Of a stretch of DNA of 64,000 bases, positions 35,140 to 55,689 are shown piece by piece (within the stretch, counting starts at the first letter, position 1; each line of letters begins with the position of its first letter). The DNA lies in NCBI GenBank assembly GCA_017303975.1, contig JAFLBG010000009.1:1-64000 (forward strand), read 5' to 3'. The stretch is from Bacteroidota bacterium. GTDB lineage: Bacteria; Bacteroidota; Bacteroidia; JAFLBG01. Below the pieces are notes generated by a model. It saw only the letters and a program-made list of their open reading frames with translations, had not been told where the DNA came from and did no database searches. The position numbers were made by a program, and so were the translations under genes.

Positions 35140-36459
35140 TTACTTTTGTTGATCCACATCCTCATCAAACCACTGTTTTCCTTTGGCAAATATTTTTTCA
35201 AAAAAGTTACCTTTTGTCTTTTGCGAATGAGATGTAATACTAGGCGCATTTTCTTCGGTATTAGTGGTTGATAATGGATTGTTTAACGTGTTCTTAGTTT
35301 TAGACCGTTCTAATGCTTCCAAGCCTTTCATTACCAATCCCACGCCCGTTGCAAACATTGGGCTTCCCACATTCTCACCACCTTTTGCTAAATGCTCTGT
35401 AGGATATCCAACACGGGTATCCATACCTGTTATATATTCAATTAATTGTGTAATGTGCTTTAATTGCGAACCTCCACCTGTAACAACAATACCGGCAATT
35501 AATCTTTTCTCAAATCCGGAATTCTTTATTTCATAATATACATGCTCCACAGTTTCTTCTATTCGCGCTTGTATAATATGGGCTAGATTTTTTAACGAAA
35601 TTTCTTTATGTGGTCTACCACGCAAGCCAGGAATAGAAACAATTTCATTCTCTTGATTCTCACTTGCCAATGCCGAACCAAATTTAATTTTAAGTAATTC
35701 TGCTTGACTCTTAATAATTGTACATCCTTCTTTAATATCTTCTGTAATAATATTTCCACCAAAAGGAATTACTGCTGTATGTCTAATTATTCCATCCTGA
35801 AAAATTGCAACATCTGTTGTACCACCGCCAATATCAACCAATACAACACCGGCCTCTTTTTCTTCGGGACTCAATACTGCATCAGCAGATGCAAGTGGCT
35901 CTAATGTTAAATCAGCAACTTCTAAACCTGCTTTGTTTACACATTTATAAATATTTTTTGCAGCAGCTACTTGACCTGTTATAATGTGGAAATTAGCCTC
36001 TAGCCTGATTCCCGCCATACCAATGGGATTCTTAATGCCTTGTTCATTATCTACGATGTATTCCTGCGGAAGCACATGTATAATCTCTTCTCCCGGCAAC
36101 ATCACTAGTTTATACATATCATCAATCAGCGCATCAATATCAGATTGGCCAATTTCTTCATCTACTGTATGACGAATTTTAACACCTCTGTGCTGTAAAC
36201 TTTTTATGTGTTGACCTGCAATACCAACATTTACAACCTTTATATTAACTCCAGATTTTGCTTCAGCCTCTGCAACTGCTGTTCGAATAGATTGAACAGT
36301 TTGGTCAATATTTAACACCACGCCCCTTGAAACACCCAACGAATCAGACTTTCCAATGCCTAGAATTTCAATTTTGCCATGCTCGTTTCTGCGGCCTACA
36401 ATTACGGCTATTTTAGTTGTACCAATATCTAGTCCAACTACTATGTCTGATGTTTCCAT
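35140..36459 (-). CDS. ftsA: Cell division protein FtsA
   Basis: FtsA is the actin-like membrane anchor of the Z ring. The 439-residue protein has the ATP-binding VVGLDIGTTKIAVIVG at residues 7-22, the 1C-domain region near 85-165, VLVDIGGGTTDVAIF near 209, and TGGGSQLKHI near 331. A C-terminal amphipathic segment (NFFEKIFAKGKQWFDE, about 415-430) fits membrane targeting. It is the last gene of the dcw cluster. ftsZ, which normally follows it, is absent: the next gene is convergent and 19 bases away. Confidence 0.96.
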   Translation of the reverse strand: METSDIVVGLDIGTTKIAVIVGRRNEHGKIEILGIGKSDSLGVSRGVVLNIDQTVQSIRTAVAEAEAKSGVNIKVVNVGIAGQHIKSLQHRGVKIRHTVDEEIGQSDIDALIDDMYKLVMLPGEEIIHVLPQEYIVDNEQGIKNPIGMAGIRLEANFHIITGQVAAAKNIYKCVNKAGLEVADLTLEPLASADAVLSPEEKEAGVVLVDIGGGTTDVAIFQDGIIRHTAVIPFGGNIITEDIKEGCTIIKSQAELLKIKFGSALASENQENEIVSIPGLRGRPHKEISLKNLAHIIQARIEETVEHVYYEIKNSGFEKRLIAGIVVTGGGSQLKHITQLIEYITGMDTRVGYPTEHLAKGGENVGSPMFATGVGLVMKGLEALERSKTKNTLNNPLSTTNTEENAPSITSHSQKTKGNFFEKIFAKGKQWFDEDVDQQK

Positions 36460-37344: not shown

Positions 37345-38763
37345 TTACGACCCACTTCTACTTTCCAACATCTCTCGTATTGGTGCTACCAAGGTATCAA
37401 TATCTCCAGCCCCAATAGTTAAAAGCACTTCAGGCTTTGATATTCTCAATATATCAATTAGATTATTTTTCGAAACAATACTTTTCTCTTTACAATTTAT
37501 CTTACTCAGGAGCCAATCTGATGTTACGCCCTCCATAGGCTGCTCGCGCGCAGGATATATATCCAACAAAACTACTTCATCTAGTAGTGACAAGCTTTCC
37601 GCAAAACCATCCACAAAATCTCTAGTTCTTGAATACAAGTGCGGTTGAAATATTCCGGTTATTTGTTTAGTCGGAAAAATACTTTTCACCGATTTGACAA
37701 ACGCATTTATTTCTTCCGGGTGATGCGCATAATCGTCAATATAAGTAACCTCTTCGCTTTCGAATTGCACATCAAATCTGCGTTTTACTCCTTTAAATGA
37801 TTGTAACCCTTTGCGAATATCAGCTTCGGAAATTTTTAAAAGATGCGCAACTGCAATTGCAACTAAACTATTCTCTACATTATGAAACCCCGGTATTCCA
37901 AGTGTAATATCTTTAATGACTCCGTTAGGTGTTTTTACAGAGTACGTGTGGTATATGCCTGTAATTGCAGAATTAACAAGAGTAACATCAGCTTTCCCTG
38001 ACATTCCATACGTAATTACTTTCTGATTAGAATCTGTAAAAAAATGTTTTAACTTTTCGTTTACGATAACTACCCCGTCCTTATTAGTTTGCGAAACAAA
38101 TTGCAAATATGAATTTACCATATTCTGCTCCGTTCCATAAATATCCAAATGATCGGGATCCATGGAAGTAATTACAGAAATCTGAGGAAATAAAGTAAGG
38201 AATGATTTATCATATTCATCAGCCTCTACAACCATATACGGTTTCTGTAATGGAGATGTAACGTATTCGTTAGGAAACAAAATATTGGTATTGTAATTCT
38301 TGGTAATGCCTCCTAAAAATGCGGCACAGTCCAAGTTAGCACTCTTCATCAAATGTGTAACTATTGACGAGGTTGTTGTTTTCCCATGCGTTCCGGCCAC
38401 AGCAATCGTGTTAAATTGTTCAGCAATTATCCCTAACGCTTTTGCTCTTTTGATAATGTTAACTCCCTTATTTTTTAGGTACACGTATTCGCTGTGGTCG
38501 GTTGGCACTGCGGGGGTATGAACGATTAATAGTTTGCTTAAATCTGCTAATTCTTGAAATTTCATAGGAAGCAATTGAATGTCCTCCATGTAATGAATAG
38601 AAACACCTTCATTTTCTAGTTCTTGAGTTAAAGGTGTTTGTGTTTTATCATATCCGGCAACTTCCTTCCCCATTCGTTTAAAATATCTGGCAAGCGCGCT
38701 CATCCCTATCCCTCCAATACCCAGGAAATAAACTGACTCAATATTTTTAAATTCTATATTCAT
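37345..38763 (-). CDS. murC: UDP-N-acetylmuramate--L-alanine ligase
   Basis: MurC adds L-alanine to UDP-MurNAc in peptidoglycan precursor synthesis in the cytoplasm. The 472-residue ligase has the N-terminal dinucleotide-like fold FLGIGGIGMSALARY near 13, the ATP-binding AGTHGKTTTSSIV near 118, the central-domain DEYDKSFL near 180 and DDYAHHPEEI near 341. The murG gene upstream overlaps it by 4 bases (ATGA), showing translational coupling. Confidence 0.96.
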   Translation of the reverse strand: MNIEFKNIESVYFLGIGGIGMSALARYFKRMGKEVAGYDKTQTPLTQELENEGVSIHYMEDIQLLPMKFQELADLSKLLIVHTPAVPTDHSEYVYLKNKGVNIIKRAKALGIIAEQFNTIAVAGTHGKTTTSSIVTHLMKSANLDCAAFLGGITKNYNTNILFPNEYVTSPLQKPYMVVEADEYDKSFLTLFPQISVITSMDPDHLDIYGTEQNMVNSYLQFVSQTNKDGVVIVNEKLKHFFTDSNQKVITYGMSGKADVTLVNSAITGIYHTYSVKTPNGVIKDITLGIPGFHNVENSLVAIAVAHLLKISEADIRKGLQSFKGVKRRFDVQFESEEVTYIDDYAHHPEEINAFVKSVKSIFPTKQITGIFQPHLYSRTRDFVDGFAESLSLLDEVVLLDIYPAREQPMEGVTSDWLLSKINCKEKSIVSKNNLIDILRISKPEVLLTIGAGDIDTLVAPIREMLESRSGS

Positions 38764-39866
38764 CGGGCATTTACTAATTGTAAAACCTCCTCTACAATAA
38801 TTTTTGTTGCTTGAGGAAGCGCCATTTTCCTAATATTTCCTTTTAACTCACTTTGCAGTTGTTCATTCTTACAAAGCTCAACGACCCTATTTACAAGCAC
38901 TGTAGAAGCATCTGCATCTTTTACTAAAACAGCAGCATTTTTATCTACCAATGTCTTAGCATTCTTTGTTTGATGATCTTCTGCTACATTTGGTGATGGA
39001 ACTAGAATAATAGGCTTTCCAACAACACATAGTTCGGAAATGCTGCTGGCACCAGCTCTAGAGATGATTACATCAGCAACTGCATAAGCCAAATCCATTC
39101 TGCCAATAAAATCAAATGCGTGACAATTTGAAGAATCATTCGTAGCAATAGTTTCTTTTGCCTTACTTATAAATGTTTTTCCTGTTTGCCAAACAAGCTG
39201 AAAACCTTCCTTTTCAATAACAGAGAGGCCTCTTGCAATGCTTTCATTTATTGTACGAGCACCTAAACTACCACCTATCACTAGAATTGTTTTTTTTGAT
39301 TCCTGCAAATTAAAGAATTGAATACCTTCCTTTTTTTTATCTTCAATTGCTGTAATATCTTGCCTTATAGGGTTTCCTGTTAATTTGATTTTCTCTTTTG
39401 GGAAAAAGCGCTCCATATCTTCATACGCCACACAAATTTTATTTACCGTCTTTGCTAAAATTTTATTCGTAATTCCAGGGTATGAATTTTGCTCTTGAAT
39501 TAATGTAGGAATTCCTTTCTTTGACGCTGCTCGCAACATAGGACCACTTGCATATCCTCCAGTACCAATAACTACATCGGGTTTAAAATCAGCAATTATT
39601 TTCCGTGCTTTCCACAAACTGCTAATTACTTTAAAAGGAAAAGACAAATTATCTAACGTAAGCTTGCGTTGCAAACCACTAATCCACAATCCAATTATTT
39701 TATATCCTGCAGTAGGCACTTTCTCCATTTCCATTCGCCCTTCTGCTCCTACAAATAAAATATCCACATTGCTATGTACCAACTTTAATTGATTTGCAAT
39801 AGCAACAGCCGGAAATATATGACCTCCGGTACCTCCTCCACTAATAATGACTTTAAGCGGTTTCAA
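38760..39866 (-). CDS. murG: UDP-GlcNAc--undecaprenyl-PP-MurNAc-pentapeptide GlcNAc transferase
   Basis: MurG makes lipid II from lipid I on the inner face of the membrane. The 368-residue GT-B enzyme has the N-terminal glycine motif ISGGGTGGHIFPAVAIA at residues 8-24, GTGGYASGP near 100, VIGGSLGARTINE near 197 and the donor-binding DVIISRAGASSISEL near 266. The start overlaps the end of ftsW by 14 bases. Confidence 0.96.
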   Translation of the reverse strand: MKPLKVIISGGGTGGHIFPAVAIANQLKLVHSNVDILFVGAEGRMEMEKVPTAGYKIIGLWISGLQRKLTLDNLSFPFKVISSLWKARKIIADFKPDVVIGTGGYASGPMLRAASKKGIPTLIQEQNSYPGITNKILAKTVNKICVAYEDMERFFPKEKIKLTGNPIRQDITAIEDKKKEGIQFFNLQESKKTILVIGGSLGARTINESIARGLSVIEKEGFQLVWQTGKTFISKAKETIATNDSSNCHAFDFIGRMDLAYAVADVIISRAGASSISELCVVGKPIILVPSPNVAEDHQTKNAKTLVDKNAAVLVKDADASTVLVNRVVELCKNEQLQSELKGNIRKMALPQATKIIVEEVLQLVNAR

Positions 39867-41007
39867 GAGTTTCTGTTTTTGGGGGTTCAGGATCTAAATC
39901 TCTACTAATACTTAGTATAATACCAAATGCAATGCTTGTAAACCAAATGGAGGTCCCTCCCATACTTACCAATGGTAAGGGCTGACCAGTAACGGGAAAT
40001 AAATTAACAGCAACTGCCATATTTATCATAGCTTGAAAAACCAATAAAAAACAACAACCTATAGCCAACAGACTACCAAAGGTTTTCTGGCATTTGCCCG
40101 CTATATTTATTGCTCGATACAACAAAATAAGATAGAGCAAAACAATTACAAGAGCCAAGCCCAAGCCATACTCTTCAATAATTATTGCAAAAATAAAATC
40201 GGAATACGGATGCGGTAAAAAATTACGTTGCGTACTTTTTCCAGGTCCTTTCCCAACCACACCGCCTGTAGCAATGGCTATCTTAGCTTGTTCTACTTGA
40301 TAATTACCTTCACTGTCGTTTTTCGAAAAATTCTCAATACGGGCTTTCCATGTAGCTACGCGATTATTAATATTGGGGAAAGCAAAAATGATTAGAATGA
40401 ATATAGAAAATGCCATCACGGCTGACAATAGAAGGATTCCCAAATGCTTAAAGCTTACTCTTCCAATAAAAAGCAGGACCATACAGGTTGTAAATAATAC
40501 GGCTGATGTAGAAAAATTAGCAGGAAGTATTAATCCACAAATTGCAACAATAGGAATTACAATGGGTAAAAATGTCTTTTTGAAATCTTTGATTTCATTT
40601 TGCTTGAGTGCTAGCATTCTTGCTACATATGCAATTAGAGCAAGCTTTGCAAAGTCTGATGTTTGAAAAGTCAATCCCGTTCCAGGTACCTCAAGCCATC
40701 TACTAGCTTCATTTAAATTAGCTCCTTTTAGCAGAGTAAATAACAATAGCGGTGCGGCAACAAATAATGCCAACTGAGACAACCTTGAATAGTATGTGTA
40801 TTTAATTGTATGTGTGAGATACATTAAGAAAATTCCCATCCCAATAATTAAGGAATGTTTTATTAAGTAATAGCTTGTATCTCCCGATTTGTATTTATAC
40901 GCTAACGTTACGATAGAGCTGTAAACAACCAACACAGAAATTATAGATAATAGTAAAACTATTGTCCAAATTACTTTATCTCCTTTTAGGTATGAAAACA
41001 GATTCAT
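39853..41007 (-). CDS. ftsW: SEDS peptidoglycan polymerase FtsW
   Basis: This 384-residue SEDS-family protein has about ten membrane segments and shows SRWLEVPGTGLTFQTSDFAK near 110, GKGPGKSTQRNFLPHPYSDF near 252, and the C-terminal LPLVSMGGTS near 345. FtsW polymerises septal glycan with the class B PBP encoded at 45741. It overlaps murG by 14 bases and follows the orphan MurD C-domain gene after 55 bases. Confidence 0.95.
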   Translation of the reverse strand: MNLFSYLKGDKVIWTIVLLLSIISVLVVYSSIVTLAYKYKSGDTSYYLIKHSLIIGMGIFLMYLTHTIKYTYYSRLSQLALFVAAPLLLFTLLKGANLNEASRWLEVPGTGLTFQTSDFAKLALIAYVARMLALKQNEIKDFKKTFLPIVIPIVAICGLILPANFSTSAVLFTTCMVLLFIGRVSFKHLGILLLSAVMAFSIFILIIFAFPNINNRVATWKARIENFSKNDSEGNYQVEQAKIAIATGGVVGKGPGKSTQRNFLPHPYSDFIFAIIIEEYGLGLALVIVLLYLILLYRAINIAGKCQKTFGSLLAIGCCFLLVFQAMINMAVAVNLFPVTGQPLPLVSMGGTSIWFTSIAFGIILSISRDLDPEPPKTETLETA

Positions 41008-41062: not shown

Positions 41063-41575
41063 TTAGCCTCTTAGCTGAGCCACAGCCTTTTTAAATTCAT
41101 CACCCCGTTCTCTATAACTCTCAAAAGCCTTTGCATGACATGCCGGAGAAAACAATACTACATCATCTTCTTTGGCATACCAATACGCAACTCTAACAGC
41201 TTCTTCAACAGTGAGCGCAGTAACAAAAAGCTTCGATCCTGTTTTGTAATTTTTTACAATATTTTCTTCCTCAACACCTAAATAAATAATTGCTTTAATT
41301 TTTTGTTGATTTTCCTTTAATAGTTTAGCGTAATCAGTTCCTTTATCTGCACCACCAATTATCAATAAAGACTTCGCACTTATTAATTCTAACGAACTTA
41401 TTGTAATATCTACACTAAGCGACTTGGAATCATTTATATAAGTAACACCTTTTACCTGGGCTACCATTTCCATGTTGTGCTCATCAACATTATTTACGAC
41501 ATTTTGCCGTAATTTTAGTAATGGATTGGTGGTTTGTTGAGAGACTTGATTGGGTTGGGTATTTTTTTGTTCCAT
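41063..41575 (-). CDS. Stand-alone MurD C-terminal-domain paralogue
   Basis: The ATG at 41575 gives 170 residues, starting 22 bases after the murD stop. An in-frame extension to 41671 would overlap murD and matches nothing. After a Gln/Asn-rich lead of about 40 residues, the protein aligns with the last third of the adjacent MurD: VKGVTYINDSKSLSVD against VHGINFINDSKATNVN, IGGADKGTDYAKL against VGGVDKGNDYAEL, and FSPACHAKAFESYRERGDEF against LSPACASFDLFENFEDRG. The ATP-binding and central domains are missing, so it cannot be a full ligase. It retains the glutamate-ligase C-domain motifs and an intact frame, suggesting a kept function, perhaps regulation of or assembly with MurD. That role is inference. 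Confidence 0.8.
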   Translation of the reverse strand: MEQKNTQPNQVSQQTTNPLLKLRQNVVNNVDEHNMEMVAQVKGVTYINDSKSLSVDITISSLELISAKSLLIIGGADKGTDYAKLLKENQQKIKAIIYLGVEEENIVKNYKTGSKLFVTALTVEEAVRVAYWYAKEDDVVLFSPACHAKAFESYRERGDEFKKAVAQLRG

Positions 41576-41597
41576 TTGCTTAGTGTTAGGGTAATAA

Positions 41598-42947
41598 CTA
41601 AAGAGAGCGAACTGCTTGTTTAAATTGTCTTCCTCTATCTTCAAAATTTTCAAATAGATCGAAACTTGCACATGCTGGAGAAAGAAGAACTACATCACCT
41701 TTCTTACCTAGTCTGTAACCTTGAGCCACAGCCTCTTTTGCACTTCCAGCTTCAACCAATACAGGAACAATAGAAGAAAATGCTTTGATAATTTTTTTAT
41801 TATCAGTTCCTAAGCAAATGATTGCTTTCACTTTTTCTTTTACTAACTCTTTTAGTTCAGCGTAGTCATTTCCTTTATCAACTCCTCCAACAATCCAAAC
41901 TACCGGCTGTTGCATACTTTCTAATGCATACCAAGCAGAATTTACGTTTGTTGCCTTTGAATCGTTGATAAAATTAATACCATGCACTGTTGCTACAAAT
42001 TCTAGTCGATGTTCTACATTTTGAAAATCAGATAAGCTTTCGCGAATATCTTCTTTTCTAACATTCACTACATTAGATGCAACAGCTGCTGCCATTGAGT
42101 TGTAAAGATTGTGTCTGCCTTGTAAGGCTAGTTCTTGAATTGACATGTTTAATTGGTTTGTTGTTTGGTTTGTATTTAGGATTAATTGGGTCTCTTGTAA
42201 ATAAGCTCCATTTTCTACTTTCTGCTTTATAGAAAATGGGTAGTTAGTGGAATGCAATTCTCGCTTTTGAATTTCGTTTGCAATAATTGGATCATCGGCA
42301 CAATAAATAAATGCATCTGCACTTGTTTGATTCTGCGTTATTCTAAATTTTGCATTTACATAATTTTGCAACTGATATTCATATCTATCTAAATGATCGG
42401 GTGTGATATTTAAAAGGATTGCTACATCAGCTTTAAAATCATACATTCCATCTAATTGAAAACTACTTAACTCTAGTACATAGTAATCGTAGTTGTTTTC
42501 TGCTACTTGCAGAGCAAAGCTTTTACCCACATTTCCTGCCAAACCAACATTGTATCCGGCTTTTTTAAGAATGTGATAGGTAAGCATGGTTGTTGTCGTT
42601 TTACCATTGCTTCCTGTAATACATATTTTTTTTGCGTTTGTGTAACGTCCCGCAAATTCAATTTCTGATATAACCGGAATTCCTTTGTTTTTGGCCTCTT
42701 TAATGACAGGTGCCTTATCAGGAATTCCCGGGCTTTTTACAATTTCATTAGCAGCTAGTATTTTATCTACTGAATGGATTTCCTCTTCAAAGGCAATTCC
42801 TTTTTCTTGCAACTGCTGCTTATATTTTTCTTTTATTTTATTCTTGTCAGAAACAAAAACAGAAAATCCTTTAGATGCTGCTAATATAGCTGCACCCACA
42901 CCACTTTCAGCGGCTCCAAGAATTACTATTTTTTTATTTTCTGACAT
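41598..42947 (-). CDS. murD: UDP-N-acetylmuramoyl-L-alanine--D-glutamate ligase
   Basis: MurD adds D-glutamate to UDP-MurNAc-L-Ala. The 449-residue ligase has VILGAAESGVGAAILA near 8, the ATP loop ITGSNGKTTTTML near 108, LNITPDHLDRY near 184, the C-domain FINDSKATNVNSAW near 321 and LSPACASFDLFENFEDRG near 423. It is a full-length enzyme, unlike the downstream partial paralogue. A 67-base gap with a palindrome separates it from mraY. Confidence 0.96.
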   Translation of the reverse strand: MSENKKIVILGAAESGVGAAILAASKGFSVFVSDKNKIKEKYKQQLQEKGIAFEEEIHSVDKILAANEIVKSPGIPDKAPVIKEAKNKGIPVISEIEFAGRYTNAKKICITGSNGKTTTTMLTYHILKKAGYNVGLAGNVGKSFALQVAENNYDYYVLELSSFQLDGMYDFKADVAILLNITPDHLDRYEYQLQNYVNAKFRITQNQTSADAFIYCADDPIIANEIQKRELHSTNYPFSIKQKVENGAYLQETQLILNTNQTTNQLNMSIQELALQGRHNLYNSMAAAVASNVVNVRKEDIRESLSDFQNVEHRLEFVATVHGINFINDSKATNVNSAWYALESMQQPVVWIVGGVDKGNDYAELKELVKEKVKAIICLGTDNKKIIKAFSSIVPVLVEAGSAKEAVAQGYRLGKKGDVVLLSPACASFDLFENFEDRGRQFKQAVRSL

Positions 42948-43014: not shown

Positions 43015-44271
43015 CTAACGAAGTTTTAAGGTTACGATTGTTAATACCGCCAACATTACTCCTATAATTAAAAATCGTGCTACTATTTTTGATTCATGTA
43101 CACCCAGTTTTTGGTAATGATGGTGCAATGGCGACATCTTAAATATTCTACGTCCTTCGCCATACTTATTCTTTGTGTATTTGAAATAACTTACCTGAAT
43201 CATAACAGATAAATTTTCCACTAAAAAAATTCCACATAAAATGGGGATAAGCAATTCCTTACGAATGGCGATTGCAAATACTGCAATGATTCCACCCAAT
43301 GCTAAACTGCCCGTATCTCCCATAAATACTTGCGCAGGAAAAGAGTTGTACCATAAAAAGCCAACGCATGCTCCAACAAAGGCACTCATAAATATTACAA
43401 GCTCTCCGGTATGAGGTATGTACATGATGTTCAAATAATCCGCAAACACCGTATTACCCGACACATATGCCAGAATTCCAAGTGTTACACCAATGATGGC
43501 AGAAGTTCCGGATGCTAAGCCATCTATTCCATCTGTAATATTAGCGCCATTCGATACCGCAGTAACAATTAATATTACAATAGGAATAAAAATCAACCAC
43601 GCCCATTTCTTATAATTTGAACCTAAAAAAGAAAGCACATTTGCATAGTCAAACTCATTATTTTTTACAAATGGAATGGTTGTTTTCATTGATTTAGTGG
43701 CCTCTTCAGCATACACCGGAATTTCCAGGTTTTTCTTTTTTGTAAAATCCTCATCAATCGTGTAAGAGCCTTGACCACTACTTTTTACCTTTTCTTTAAT
43801 TACCACATCCCTGTGAAAGAAAATTACAACACCTACTATAAGTCCAATTCCTATCTGACCTAGAATTTTAAATTTTCCTGCTAAGCCTTTCTTATCTTTT
43901 TTAAATACTTTTATATAATCGTCCAAAAAGCCAATAGAACCAAGCCACACAGTAGATACCAACATTAAGATGATATATATATTATGAAGCTTTGCAAATA
44001 GCAATGTGGGAATTACTATGGCAGCCAAAATCATTAATCCTCCCATTGTTGGAGTACCTTGCTTCTGAACTTGCCCTTGTAAGCCCAAATCTCGAATGGT
44101 TTCGCCAACTTGCTTGTTTTGCAAAAATGTGATAATGCGCTTACCCAATACCATTGATATTAATAGAGATACAATCAATGCCATCGCTGCGCGAAATGAG
44201 ATATACTGAAATACACCTGCTCCGGGCAAATCGTAGTGTTGGTCTAAAAATTTGAATAAATAATAAAACAT
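43015..44271 (-). CDS. mraY: Phospho-N-acetylmuramoyl-pentapeptide transferase
   Basis: MraY moves phospho-MurNAc-pentapeptide to undecaprenyl phosphate, giving lipid I at the inner membrane. The 418-residue protein has about ten membrane segments with [13 protein letters not shown] near 70, [20 protein letters not shown] near 113, [15 protein letters not shown] near 240, [12 protein letters not shown] near 318 and [12 protein letters not shown] near 380. A charged insertion of about 60 residues (near 160-220) is usual in the Bacteroidota form. Its start codon touches the murE stop. Confidence 0.96.
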
Positions 44272-49971: not shown

Positions 49972-52900
49972 GTGTATAGTAGGCTTAAAAAAGGTATTAT
50001 TTTTTTTCTTTTTGTCATTTTTGCCTTATCAGGCAGCGGGTTGCTCCATGCCCAAAAGGAAGCTAATTTTTGGTATTTTGGACAAAAGCAAAATGGACTA
50101 GATTTTACCAGCTTCCCACCGTCTGTAATTTCAAACGGGAAGCATGGTGCGCCTCCGTCTCCGCAGGTAGTAGATAATATAGCAAGCATTAGTAATGCCC
50201 AAGGTAATTTATTGTTCTATACCGATGGTATAACCGTTTGGGATAAGAGTCACAACCAAATGCCCAATGGGACAGGACTCTTAGGGTGCAACGGAAGTAC
50301 GTGTGTGAATTTGACTCAGCAAGTTTTAATTCTTAAAAAACCCGGTCCAAATACTATTTACTATATATTTTACATACATCAAGCTGCAGGCCCACCCACG
50401 AGTCTGTCTCTTTACTATTCTGAGGTGGATATGGCTGCAACAGTAAATGGGGGCTTAGGGGATGTTGTTGCCACATCTAAAAACACATTGGTTTATTCGG
50501 GTACCACTCAAAAGCTTGCCGCAGTAAAACACGCTAACTGTCAAGACATTTGGGTTGTTTCCCACGAAGCAGCAACTTCATCATCAAACACAAACAAATA
50601 CAGAAGTTATCTTTTAACATCCTCCGGACTTAACTTAATTCCTACCATTAGCCCTGTAGGCACTACATTTACAGCCACCAACCCTTATGCTGCCGGCCAA
50701 TTAAAAATTTCCCCAACCGGCTTCAAACTTGCTCTTGCAGGTAAGCAAAACGTAGGCTCATTAGTTGATTTGTGTGATTTTAATCCTGCAACAGGTGCGG
50801 TTACCAATGCGCAAACTATACCTGTACCAGGTGCTTTCGGGGTAGAATTTTCTCCGAACGGAAAATACTTGTACGCAGCAGGTTTAGGCACAGGCGCTAG
50901 CAAAAATATATTTCAAGTGGATGTTTGTGCAACTACACCTACTTTAACCATAGTCGGCACGAGTGCGGATAATGTTGGATCCCTCCAATTGGGTCCGGAC
51001 AAAAAAATATATGTATGTAGGGTTAACACCAAAAACATAGGTGTAATTAATCAACCAAACAGTGCCGGTGTTGCTTGTAACTATGTGGACAATGGAGTTA
51101 CAGGGCTTACCGTTAATTTGTATCAAGGATTAACGAGCTTTATAGCTAGTTATTTTAAGGATACTGTTCCGAGATACACTTACACAACAAACTGCTTAAA
51201 CTATTCATTTACATCTCCACCTTCTTCTTGTGCCTATAAAATAACTAGCTATAATTGGAATTTTGGAGATCCTGCTTCTGGGCTAAACAACACATCCGTA
51301 TCGGCAAATCCCACACACACCTTTACTATTCCGGGCAATTACACGGTAAAACTAATTCTAAATGGATGTGCAGATACACTATCGCAAATTATTAATGTTA
51401 CAGCATGTCCACTAATTCCAACTATTACAGCTACTAATCCAATCTGTCCTGGAGCTTGTAGTGTGGTGTCCGCTTCCGTTACAGGTGGCTCCCCACCTTA
51501 TACATACAACTGGTCTCCTAATATTGGCTCAGGAGTCGGCCCTTACAATGTTTGCCCTACAGTCACAACAGTATATACAGTTAGTGTAAGCGATGCCGCT
51601 TTAACTTCTACAGTTACCTCTTTTACTGTAACCGTACATCCTCAAACCGTTGCAAATTTAACAACCTCAACTATTACATGCAGTGGCTTTCCCAATGGCT
51701 CTATAACGGCAACTCCCGGTGTTGGCCCAGGACCTTACTCATATACATGGCAGCCAAGTGGTGCTACAACAGCTGCTATAAGTGGGTTAGGTGCAAATAC
51801 GTATACAGTTACAATAAAAGATGCGAATAATTGTACAACAAAAACGACCGCTACAATTACAGCACCACCTCCTTTAACTTTAAATACCAACATATCTGCA
51901 ACGGTGAGCTGCTTTAATGGAAGCAATGGTTCTATTGCAGCGGTTGCCTCAGGAGGAGTTGGAAGCTACACCTACGTTTGGTCAACCGGACAATCTACAA
52001 TTACAGCATCTACATTAAATGTTCATTCAAATTTAAGTGCCGGAACTTTTAGTGTTACAGTAACCGATGGAAATGGTTGTAGCTCAACAAAAGTGCGTAC
52101 AATTACGCAACCTTCAACAGCGCTATCTTTAAGTCTAACAGTAAACAATCATGTTTCCTGTGCAGGTGGAAGTAATGGAGCTGCAACAGCAAGTGCCTCC
52201 GGTGGTACAGGGGCATATACATTTACTTGGAGCAATGCAAGTAATACTGCATCAGCAACCGGATTGTCGGCTGCAATTTATTCTGCTACCGTTAGAGATG
52301 CGAATGGGTGCTCTGTAACTGGCACTATAAGCATTACAGAGCCGCCAGCTTCAATAAGTGCTTCAGCAAATGTTGTAAGCAATGTATCTTGTTTTAACGG
52401 ATCTAATGGCTCTGCAACTGCTGTACCTGCCGGTGGTGTCGGCTCATATACATACAGTTGGTCTAATGCTGCAACAAGCGCAACTGTTACTACACTAAAT
52501 GCAAGTACTCATACCGTAACTATTACCGATTCCAACGGATGCGCTGCATCAGCCACTGTGGCTGTTTCGCAGCCTTCGCTTGCTGTAGTAGCAACAACAT
52601 CTTTAACAAGCAATGTGCTTTGCTTTGGAGGAAATACAGGAAGTGGAAGTGCTGCTGCCTCCGGAGGTACAGGACCATACACTTTCGTCTGGTCTAATTC
52701 AACTAGCGGAAGTACCGCAAATAGCCTGTTAGCAAATACATACACCGTAACGGTTACCGATGCTAACAATTGTTCCGATACGGAAACGTTGGTTATTACC
52801 CAGCCTGCTCAAGCGCTAACAACTAGTGCGATACAAACTCAAAGCGTAGGCTGTGTAGGAGGGAGTAATGGTATTGCAACCGCTAATGCAGTTGGTGGAA

Positions 52901-55689
52901 CCGGTGGCTACACGTATTTATGGTCAAACAATGCAACAACTTCTGCAATTGCAACTATTGCCGCAGGAAATTATACGGTAACTATTTCTGATGCGAATGG
53001 ATGTACACAAAGTAGTACCGTAAACATAGGCCAACCTTCCAGCGTAGTAACGGCCAACGCAAACATAAACAACCATGTTGCCTGTTTAAACGGAGCAAAC
53101 GGAAGTGTTACTGCAATAGGCTCTGGAGGCTCATCTCCTTATTCTTACTCTTGGAAAAACACAGGTATTACAACCGCTACAGCAACAGGTTTAGGCGCAC
53201 AAACCTATACTGTTGACATAACAGACAATAACGGATGCCCTGCATCTACTACAGTTACACTAACACAACCAGCTACTGCTCTTAGTGCCACTACAACAGT
53301 TATTAATAATGTTTCTTGCTTCAACGGAAATAACGGTTCTGCTTCGGTTAATGCTTCCGGTGGAATTGGCGGATATACCTATTCTTGGTTAAATCCGGTG
53401 AACTCTACTCTCACTACTGTAAATAATTTGAGTGCAAACACCTATACAATTTCTGTAACAGATGCTAATAATTGTATGATACATGCGTTTGTTACAATTA
53501 CTCAACCTGCAGTAACAGTAAGCAGTACAGTTACAGTTACTCAAAATGTAAATTGTTTTAATGGCACAGATGGTGCAGCTACAGTAAACGCTTCCGGTGG
53601 TAGCACTCCTTATACGTATTCTTGGACAAATGGATCTACGAGCACTTCGGTAAATTCATTACCCGCAACTAATTATACTGTTACAGTAACTGACGCAAGT
53701 GGTTGTAGTAGTGCAAATACATTTACCATAACGCAACCTCCTGCATTATCTCATTCTATTACGACTCAAACAAATGTGTCTTGTTTTGGTGGATCTAATG
53801 GAAGTGTCACAATAATTGGAACAGGTGGCAACTCGGGATATCAATATAGTTGGTCAACTTCGGCAACAGGAACAACCATTACAGGTAATACTGCAGGAGT
53901 TTATAATTTTACAATTGAAGATGCGAATGCATGTACCTACACAAACTCTGTTGCTATAACAGAACCTGCCACTGCCTTAACAGCAAGTATTGCAGCCAAT
54001 AATCAAGTGTCGTGTTTTGCCGGCAACAATGGACAAGCTACTATCAATGCATCTGGAGGAACTGCGAATTACACGTACTTGTGGTCTGCAAATAATCAGA
54101 GCACACAAATTGGAAATAACTTACCTGCAGGTATTCATAGTGCTACTGTAAACGATGCCAATGGCTGTACTGCAACGGCTACGGTTCAAATAACAGAACC
54201 TTCTCAAGCACTTAGTGTATCTTTAGTTGAAAACGGAAGCATTTCTTGTTTCAATGGAACCAACGGAAGCATTACTGCTACTGGAAATGGAGGAACTACA
54301 AATTACACATTTTCATGGACGGGGTTAACACAAACAACAAATACAATAACAAACATTGGTGCAGGAACCTATATTGTAACTATCACAGATGCTAACCTGT
54401 GTACAGTTGTAGATAGTATCTCTATAACACAACCCGTTGCCATAAGCATAAGTGCAACTTCTGCTTATGGAATTTGTCAGGGAAATAATGCAAACCTTAC
54501 TGCTTCGGCTACAGGTGGTTCTGGAGTAATTTCATTTACATGGTCAGACAACCAAACAGGACCTTCTGTTTTTGTGTCTCCATCTGCCACAACTATATAT
54601 AACGTTACAGCTACCGATGCAAATAATTGTAGCACAACAGCTACAATAAATGTAAATGTAAGCACACCGCTATCAATTACAGTTAATACAACCTCTACCA
54701 CAATTTGCGATGGAACATCTGCGACATTAAGTGCTAGTGCAAGTGGCGGTCTAGGCAACAATTACACATTTACATGGAATCCCGGAAGTACTAACACCGC
54801 TGCAATTACAGTATCTCCAAGCACCAATACCAATTACACACTTTCTGTATCCAATGCTTGTGGGACAAAAGACACCAACATAACTATAACCGTAAATCCA
54901 TTGCCCGTTGTTAGCTTTACTGCAAATGATCCCGATGGATGCCCTACTCATTGTGTTCTATTTACAAATACAACCCCAAATACAGGTGGCGTTACTTGGT
55001 ATTTTGGCGATGGCAGCACTTCTGATACCACACCTACAACTACACACTGCTACGTAAACAGCGGAGTATATTCGATAACACTGATTGTGAATGATGTTAA
55101 TGGTTGCATAAATTCAAAAACAGAAACAAACTATATTGTTATTTATCCTGAAGCTCAAGCTGACTTTACAGCAACCCCCCAAACAACAAGTATTGCTGCA
55201 CCTACAGTTGAATTTACAGATTTATCAATTGGCGCCAATTCTTGGTATTGGAGCTTTGGAACTGCGCTTGACGACACTTCTATTGTTCAGAATCCTACAT
55301 TCAGTTTTTATGACCCAGGTACATACGATGTAATGCTCGTAGTTGGCAACCAATACGGTTGCAAGCCAGATACAATAACACATACGATTAAGGTAATAGA
55401 AGATTATATAATGTATATTCCCAACTCTTTTTCACCCAATGGTGATAATAAAAACGACACCTTTATTCCCATTGGAATGGGTATAAACATTGACACGTAT
55501 GAGTTGCTAATTTTCGACCGCTGGGGAAATTTGCTATTTGAAAGTAGAGATATAAATATTGGCTGGGACGGAAAAGCGAATGGAGGAGGGACTATTGCAC
55601 AAATAGATACCTATGTGTGGAAAATAAAATTAAAAGATACTGTTGGAAACAAACACTCCTTTGTTGGACACGTTAATATACTCCGTTAA
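49972..55689 (+). CDS. Giant SprB-repeat cell-surface protein with CHU_C-type T9SS sorting domain
   Basis: This 1905-residue protein starts at a GTG with a signal peptide (KKGIIFFLFVIFALSGSGLLHAQ). Residues about 29-400 form the same sortilin-like propeller module as in the protein at 28344 (ANFWYFG, LLFYTDGITVWDKSHNQMPNG). A PKD domain follows (about 401-478, YNWNFGDPASG) and an Ig-like unit. Twelve SprB-type repeats of about 70-80 residues (about 563-1490; consensus SCFNG-NGSATA-ASGG, Y-YSWSN, TVTDANGC, ITQPA) are next. Two Ig-like and two PKD units and the C-terminal sorting domain (YIPNSFSPNGDNKND to GHVNILR) end it. SprB of Flavobacterium is the mobile gliding adhesin, so a motility or adhesion role is likely but not shown. 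Confidence 0.9.
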   Translation: MYSRLKKGIIFFLFVIFALSGSGLLHAQKEANFWYFGQKQNGLDFTSFPPSVISNGKHGAPPSPQVVDNIASISNAQGNLLFYTDGITVWDKSHNQMPNGTGLLGCNGSTCVNLTQQVLILKKPGPNTIYYIFYIHQAAGPPTSLSLYYSEVDMAATVNGGLGDVVATSKNTLVYSGTTQKLAAVKHANCQDIWVVSHEAATSSSNTNKYRSYLLTSSGLNLIPTISPVGTTFTATNPYAAGQLKISPTGFKLALAGKQNVGSLVDLCDFNPATGAVTNAQTIPVPGAFGVEFSPNGKYLYAAGLGTGASKNIFQVDVCATTPTLTIVGTSADNVGSLQLGPDKKIYVCRVNTKNIGVINQPNSAGVACNYVDNGVTGLTVNLYQGLTSFIASYFKDTVPRYTYTTNCLNYSFTSPPSSCAYKITSYNWNFGDPASGLNNTSVSANPTHTFTIPGNYTVKLILNGCADTLSQIINVTACPLIPTITATNPICPGACSVVSASVTGGSPPYTYNWSPNIGSGVGPYNVCPTVTTVYTVSVSDAALTSTVTSFTVTVHPQTVANLTTSTITCSGFPNGSITATPGVGPGPYSYTWQPSGATTAAISGLGANTYTVTIKDANNCTTKTTATITAPPPLTLNTNISATVSCFNGSNGSIAAVASGGVGSYTYVWSTGQSTITASTLNVHSNLSAGTFSVTVTDGNGCSSTKVRTITQPSTALSLSLTVNNHVSCAGGSNGAATASASGGTGAYTFTWSNASNTASATGLSAAIYSATVRDANGCSVTGTISITEPPASISASANVVSNVSCFNGSNGSATAVPAGGVGSYTYSWSNAATSATVTTLNASTHTVTITDSNGCAASATVAVSQPSLAVVATTSLTSNVLCFGGNTGSGSAAASGGTGPYTFVWSNSTSGSTANSLLANTYTVTVTDANNCSDTETLVITQPAQALTTSAIQTQSVGCVGGSNGIATANAVGGTGGYTYLWSNNATTSAIATIAAGNYTVTISDANGCTQSSTVNIGQPSSVVTANANINNHVACLNGANGSVTAIGSGGSSPYSYSWKNTGITTATATGLGAQTYTVDITDNNGCPASTTVTLTQPATALSATTTVINNVSCFNGNNGSASVNASGGIGGYTYSWLNPVNSTLTTVNNLSANTYTISVTDANNCMIHAFVTITQPAVTVSSTVTVTQNVNCFNGTDGAATVNASGGSTPYTYSWTNGSTSTSVNSLPATNYTVTVTDASGCSSANTFTITQPPALSHSITTQTNVSCFGGSNGSVTIIGTGGNSGYQYSWSTSATGTTITGNTAGVYNFTIEDANACTYTNSVAITEPATALTASIAANNQVSCFAGNNGQATINASGGTANYTYLWSANNQSTQIGNNLPAGIHSATVNDANGCTATATVQITEPSQALSVSLVENGSISCFNGTNGSITATGNGGTTNYTFSWTGLTQTTNTITNIGAGTYIVTITDANLCTVVDSISITQPVAISISATSAYGICQGNNANLTASATGGSGVISFTWSDNQTGPSVFVSPSATTIYNVTATDANNCSTTATINVNVSTPLSITVNTTSTTICDGTSATLSASASGGLGNNYTFTWNPGSTNTAAITVSPSTNTNYTLSVSNACGTKDTNITITVNPLPVVSFTANDPDGCPTHCVLFTNTTPNTGGVTWYFGDGSTSDTTPTTTHCYVNSGVYSITLIVNDVNGCINSKTETNYIVIYPEAQADFTATPQTTSIAAPTVEFTDLSIGANSWYWSFGTALDDTSIVQNPTFSFYDPGTYDVMLVVGNQYGCKPDTITHTIKVIEDYIMYIPNSFSPNGDNKNDTFIPIGMGINIDTYELLIFDRWGNLLFESRDINIGWDGKANGGGTIAQIDTYVWKIKLKDTVGNKHSFVGHVNILR

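Follow-up and report, generated by a model that had tools for sequence, protein, structure and literature searches.

A conserved stand-alone MurD C-terminal domain gene between murD and ftsW in the dcw operon of Bacteroidia

We analysed a stretch of 64,000 nucleotides from a Bacteroidota bacterium of the class Bacteroidia (assembly GCA_017303975.1, contig JAFLBG010000009.1, positions 1 to 64,000), hereafter the window, which carries a dcw gene cluster. On the minus strand this cluster encoded murE, mraY, murD, a small additional gene, ftsW, murG, murC, and ftsQ-like and ftsA-like genes, in this order, with the names of murE, murC, ftsQ and ftsA based on a by-eye reading of the sequences. Profile searches identified mraY (43015..44271; TIGR00445), a complete murD of 449 aa (41598..42947; TIGR01087, 414.9 bits) and murG (38760..39866; TIGR01133). 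The ftsW gene (39853..41007) was assigned to the FtsW/RodA family, its best NCBIfam match (TIGR02614, 278.8 bits) being below the cut-off of 337.5. The small gene, here called the orphan, occupied positions 41063..41575 of the same strand and was separated by 22 bp (41576..41597) from the stop of murD and by 55 bp from ftsW, which begins at 41007. Because a gap of 22 bp is too small for a separate promoter, we infer a same-operon layout, and the gaps between murD, the orphan and ftsW are compatible with one transcript. The ftsA-like gene (35140-36459) closed the cluster, and ftsZ did not adjoin it, being encoded on another contig (G000:C6:6424-7386). Just past the mraZ-like gene at which the dcw cluster starts, in divergent orientation, the window encoded a repeat-rich protein of 1905 aa (49972-55689), whose T9SS type B sorting domain (TIGR04131) supports the assignment to Bacteroidia.

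The orphan reading frame ran from an ATG at 41575 to a stop at 41063 without internal stops and encoded 170 aa, identified by BLASTP and HMMs as a stand-alone paralogue of the MurD C-terminal domain. Residues 32-168 (41072..41482, minus strand) aligned with residues 312-449 of the adjacent MurD (42% identity, E 4e-33, BLASTP), and the protein scored 36.6 bits against the Pfam domain Mur_ligase_C (PF02875), above the curated cut-off of 28.4. The murD model TIGR01087 covered it at model positions 304-440 only, i.e. over its last third, with 106.7 bits, which is below the equivalog cut-off of 211.95 bits and places the orphan outside the MurD enzymes. Neither Mur_ligase_M nor the N-terminal or central Mur domain of MurD was detected in the orphan by Pfam and NCBIfam HMM search, and it showed no P-loop or UDP-binding domain. 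An initial annotation of this locus had described an intact frame that aligns with the last third of MurD only and lacks the ATP-binding and central domains; all of this held, and the search of the 170 residues against Mur ligase models that it had proposed returned the C-terminal domain alone.

An AlphaFold2 model computed from an alignment of 29 orthologues (mean pLDDT 79.8) had a core of mostly good confidence and, next to it, a disordered tail. This N-terminal tail (residues 1-31; 41483..41575, minus strand) contained a single short helix at residues 18-27, with pLDDT <50 for residues 1-15 and 20-29; in the alignment with better-kept orthologues it matches the stretch where the central domain of MurD ends. 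The top solved structures found by Foldseek were all MurD C-domains (E 1.8e-11, TM 0.74 of query), and the core is predicted to adopt the Mur ligase C-domain fold, specifically that of MurD. A sequencing or assembly error within a duplicated full-length murD had been named as a possible trivial source of the gene. Such an artefact, or a split second murD, could be ruled out: the murD of the window is complete, the two copies differ at more than half of their aligned residues, and the same arrangement recurred in more than 60 genomes.

We searched 296 genomes of the class Bacteroidia with an orphan profile and checked genomes with multiple hits place by place. The orphan was found in 64 of them, including the window genome, spread over 19 of the roughly 73 family codes; 89 genomes representing other classes of the same phylum were all without it (0/89). 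In nearly every carrier it followed murD immediately on the 3' side, and at readable loci the next gene was ftsW; the window copy shares this position, 3' of murD and 5' of ftsW. The gene is therefore not missing from all relatives, an outcome that the initial annotation had considered. Nearly all sampled members of families f9, f10, f12 and f37 carried it, and in genera g21 and g41 it was present in some species and missing in others. As there are species without it in the same genus as carriers, the gene is dispensable in some lineages. At the gap between murD and ftsW of the orphan-free same-genus relatives G063, G080 and G100 no decayed orphan remnants were seen, the gap being short or filled by unrelated sequence. 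The nearest orthologues of the window orphan were about 43% identical to it, and the copy of one genome (G270) was weakly recognisable. Second hits in G005, G063, G085, G091, G130, G156, G159 and G227 were weak matches to other frames, e.g. Mur ligases, and those in G220 and G296 came from a murD split across contigs; none of these were counted. A single-protein search of named genomes yielded nothing but ordinary MurDs from other phyla. One genome (G291) carried a tandem pair of stand-alone MurD C-domain genes between murD and ftsW (L152:1933-3041).

In a C-domain tree of 131 rows including outgroups, 56 orphans and 6 distant copies formed one clade (support 95/92), with the window orphan inside this clade and outside the full-length MurDs; in a smaller tree the orphan clade had a support of 69/86. 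The clade was nested within the MurD tree of the class, and the grouping of orphans largely tracked families. The window orphan grouped with copies of f21, f41, f44 and f37, and the window MurD broadly did likewise. An AU test that placed the orphan and the MurD of family f12 in one clade was borderline (p 0.049). These trees point to a single old duplication that predated the divergence of many families of the class and was followed by mainly vertical descent with many losses; its exact depth is uncertain, and the trees contain long branches. Both trees ruled out a recent local duplication. The earlier suggestion that the gene was kept in the dcw operon after a partial duplication thus fits the data, with the amendment that this duplication was ancient and not local.

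Pairwise dN/dS ratios (Nei-Gojobori) were computed as a measure of selection, with many pairs, among them those of the window copy itself, saturated at synonymous sites, so that all figures derive from relatives. Usable pairs from six families gave omega values between 0.011 and 0.29, which indicates purifying selection and contradicts the neutral evolution that had been weighed as a counter-argument. Values were 0.02-0.05 in f10, 0.03-0.04 in f4 and 0.20-0.29 in f9, and the usable pair nearest to the clade of the window (G020/G293) gave 0.14. The lowest values were found in f12, with 0.011-0.022 for the orphan and roughly tenfold higher values (0.11-0.15) for the MurD C-domain in the same pairs. 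Over 60 genomes f12 contributed 1.5% of the total change of the orphan versus 17-19% of that of MurD, and judged by these rates the orphan of f12 is far more constrained than the neighbouring MurD. This family thus shows reversed roles, with a fast-evolving MurD and a nearly frozen orphan (L055, L061, L062, L133-L137), and its MurD C-domains branch outside the other MurDs of the class. The orphan is accordingly a conserved, intact gene of single origin within a dcw operon of the order mraY-murD-X-ftsW-murG. That it represents a neutral relic of the duplication would fit its faster evolution compared to MurD in most families, its clean losses in g21 and g41 and its faint trace in G270, but more than 60 intact orthologues in 19 families, omega far below 1 and one shared ancient origin make this the least credible explanation.

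The conservation of individual residues was compared between 29 orphans and 35 full-length MurDs, with numbering according to mature E. coli MurD. His301, Glu304, Asn316, Pro411 and Gly426 were present in 29/29 orphans, the pair Ser410-Pro411 in 28-29/29, Ser318, Phe419, Arg425 and Phe429 in 27/29, and Ser415 in 25/29. Less often kept were Thr321 (22/29), Arg302 (19/29), Lys319 (18/29) and in particular Lys348 (4/29); in full-length MurDs all scored residues were present in 34-35/35. Most orphans further showed TWYSLE versus TWYALE in MurD (Ser for Ala in 20/29) and a VLFSP-type motif versus VLLSP (Phe for Leu in 18/29). The window orphan kept Lys348 and carried Asn in place of Arg302, Leu in place of Thr321 and Ala in place of Ser415, with one residue deleted from its SPACASFDLF loop, and thus does not retain the set of D-Glu and ATP contacts of MurD. 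Arg302 has a role in ATP contact in the MurD family. In MurD the carboxylates of D-Glu mimics are held by Lys348, Thr321, Ser415 and Phe422 (PMC3527612). By alignment, catalytic and substrate contacts are drifting in the orphans and residues of the fold are fixed. The INDSK and SPAC...RG motifs that were initially noted are indeed present in the window copy, but with the changes listed above, and the binding of the incoming amino acid attributed to Mur ligase C-domains could not be transferred to a protein in which the residues binding D-Glu and ATP are largely lost.

Clues to a partner came from gene order, rate covariation and structure modelling, three lines which are suggestive only. In G041 murD ended one block of genes, and the orphan and ftsW were found together on another contig. 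In G263 the order was murE-mraY-orphan-ftsW-murG with murD absent from the operon, and neither a canonical MurD nor a glutamate racemase was detected in this genome. The only MurD-like ligase found in G263 was a protein of 876 aa in which a MurL-like epimerase is fused to MurD (L162:3264-5894) and the MurL part matched NF041275 below its cut-off (E 1e-76). By eye the fusion had Glu in place of Asp182 and Arg in place of Lys348, the two changes that are described for MurD2 (PMC8788868), and it looks like the L-Glu route via MurL and MurD2 present as one protein in Bacteroidota. The orphan of G263 was strongly diverged, possibly owing to relaxed constraint following the loss of MurD.

Rate covariation was computed on a fixed tree for a set of 26 genomes, 34 others and all 60. 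Partial rho between the orphan and MurG was 0.44 (n=26), 0.42 (n=34 others) and 0.49 (all 60), and that between the orphan and MraY was 0.45 in the set of 34; on the whole MurG was the protein with which the orphan covaried most. Covariation between the orphan and MurD was near zero or negative, compared to 0.33-0.38 for the front part of MurD and its own C-domain as a within-protein control. Without f9 and f12 the orphan reached 0.30 with MurG and 0.31 with the MurD C-domain, so that much of the contrast stems from these two families. An AlphaFold2 model of MurD and orphan, joined by a hypothetical stop read-through for tethering only, had a pTM of 0.62 and no confident docking of the orphan on MurD, a result equally compatible with docking and with its absence.

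We consider it about an even chance that the orphan, a conserved, stand-alone and non-catalytic paralogue of the MurD C-domain, acts on the machinery for lipid II synthesis as an adaptor or a regulator and is more probably tied to MurG or FtsW than to MurD. The C-domain of MurD would have been freed as a gene of its own, and its product would bind proteins at the cytoplasmic side of the operon-encoded machinery, where it could organise assembly or tune the handover of precursors. MurG binds MurD, MurE and MurF and is a proposed scaffold (PMC6420597). As Mur ligases are known to gather on MurG, at a surface that a free C-domain might share, docking on MurG or FtsW would be likelier than on MurD. 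Against this reading, murD adjoins the orphan in almost all genomes; the drop of the MurG covariation without f9 and f12, the divergence of the G263 orphan and the lack of the gene in some species of carrier genera also count against it. A farther-reaching version is possible but less likely: the orphan would be an undescribed accessory subunit for making peptidoglycan precursors throughout the class, would dock on MurG (or FtsW) rather than on MurD, and could so outlive canonical MurD in lineages that change over to MurL and MurD2.

A regulatory or structural role, as initially suggested, is in line with these data; MurD as the partner is less clear. As a decoy C-domain, the orphan might compete for the central domain of MurD and so set its activity. 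It is derived from MurD and encoded directly behind it in nearly all carriers, and the C-domain of MurD switches between an open and a closed position (PMC3527612), a movement that a free copy might disturb. Regulation of MurD by a protein is also known elsewhere, namely MigC in Acinetobacter (PMC12208494), and the covariation with the MurD C-domain that appears once f9 and f12 are removed points the same way. The partnership is weakened by the lack of overall rate covariation, the tethered model with no confident docking, and the position of the orphan beside ftsW where murD has moved out of the operon (G041) or canonical MurD is gone (G263), and we regard it as possible but rather unlikely.

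More doubtful is a role as sensor of small ligands, in which the old substrate face would bind a cell-wall metabolite or nucleotide and signal to the membrane enzymes. This face is partly kept (Asn316, Ser318, Ser410-Pro411, Ser415, Arg425-Gly426), and f12, in which the protein hardly changes, retains nearly the whole site, but Lys348 is lost in 25/29 orphans, the loop around Ser415 is variable and shortened in the window copy, and the retained residues may be structural. A catalytic C-domain acting in trans, which completes or replaces that of MurD, could draw on the f12 orphan, which retains NDSKATN, HRLE and the DK from the Lys348 motif and is more conserved than the MurD C-domain. Every full MurD examined retains its own catalytic C-domain residues, however, and several of these are lost in most orphans, including that of the window; the lost contacts together with the missing ATP-binding domain make it very unlikely that the orphan takes part in catalysis, be it in cis or in trans.

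The favoured adaptor or regulator would differ from known systems in several respects. The Mur enzymes of the operon are three-domain ligases that end in Mur_ligase_C, but this domain stands alone in the orphan, which shares the fold of the MurD C-terminal domain without the N-terminal and ATP-binding domains and with most key contacts changed. MurD2 of the L-Glu route (PMC8788868) is, like the orphan, a MurD paralogue altered at Lys348, but it is a full-length active ligase, whereas a catalytic core is missing from the orphan; of the two, only the G263 fusion belongs to that system. Work on MurE-MurF fusions and the MurG scaffold (PMC6420597, PMC4929429) describes cytoplasmic Mur enzymes organised around MurG, the role proposed here, but deals with catalytic enzymes or fusions and not with a free Mur ligase C-domain. 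MigC sets an example of a protein that regulates MurD by binding it, but is a COG0523 GTPase unrelated to the orphan and acts on residues of the middle region of MurD (PMC12208494). The family-model search gave no specific model for the orphan, and a literature search for murD truncations, duplications or paralogues in Bacteroidota, with subscription journals outside its scope, returned nothing relevant. Having lost parts needed for catalysis and yet being kept by selection, the orphan probably represents a so far undescribed accessory factor in the synthesis of cell-wall precursors.

Few bacterial operons have been studied as well as the dcw cluster, and a considerable fraction of one class carries within it a conserved non-catalytic Mur ligase domain, a peptidoglycan ligase domain turned independent protein. 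For the question of how the cytoplasmic Mur enzymes are arranged and linked to the membrane steps, the orphan offers a single deletable gene. Further, more diverged stand-alone MurD C-domain copies were encoded outside the dcw cluster in family f4, G045 and G041 (L079-L082 and L157 in G045, G049, G086, G003 and G118; L083 in G041). Most of these were without the SPAC...RG motif, and in G045 and f4 the extra copy adjoined an aldehyde-dehydrogenase-like gene on the opposite strand.
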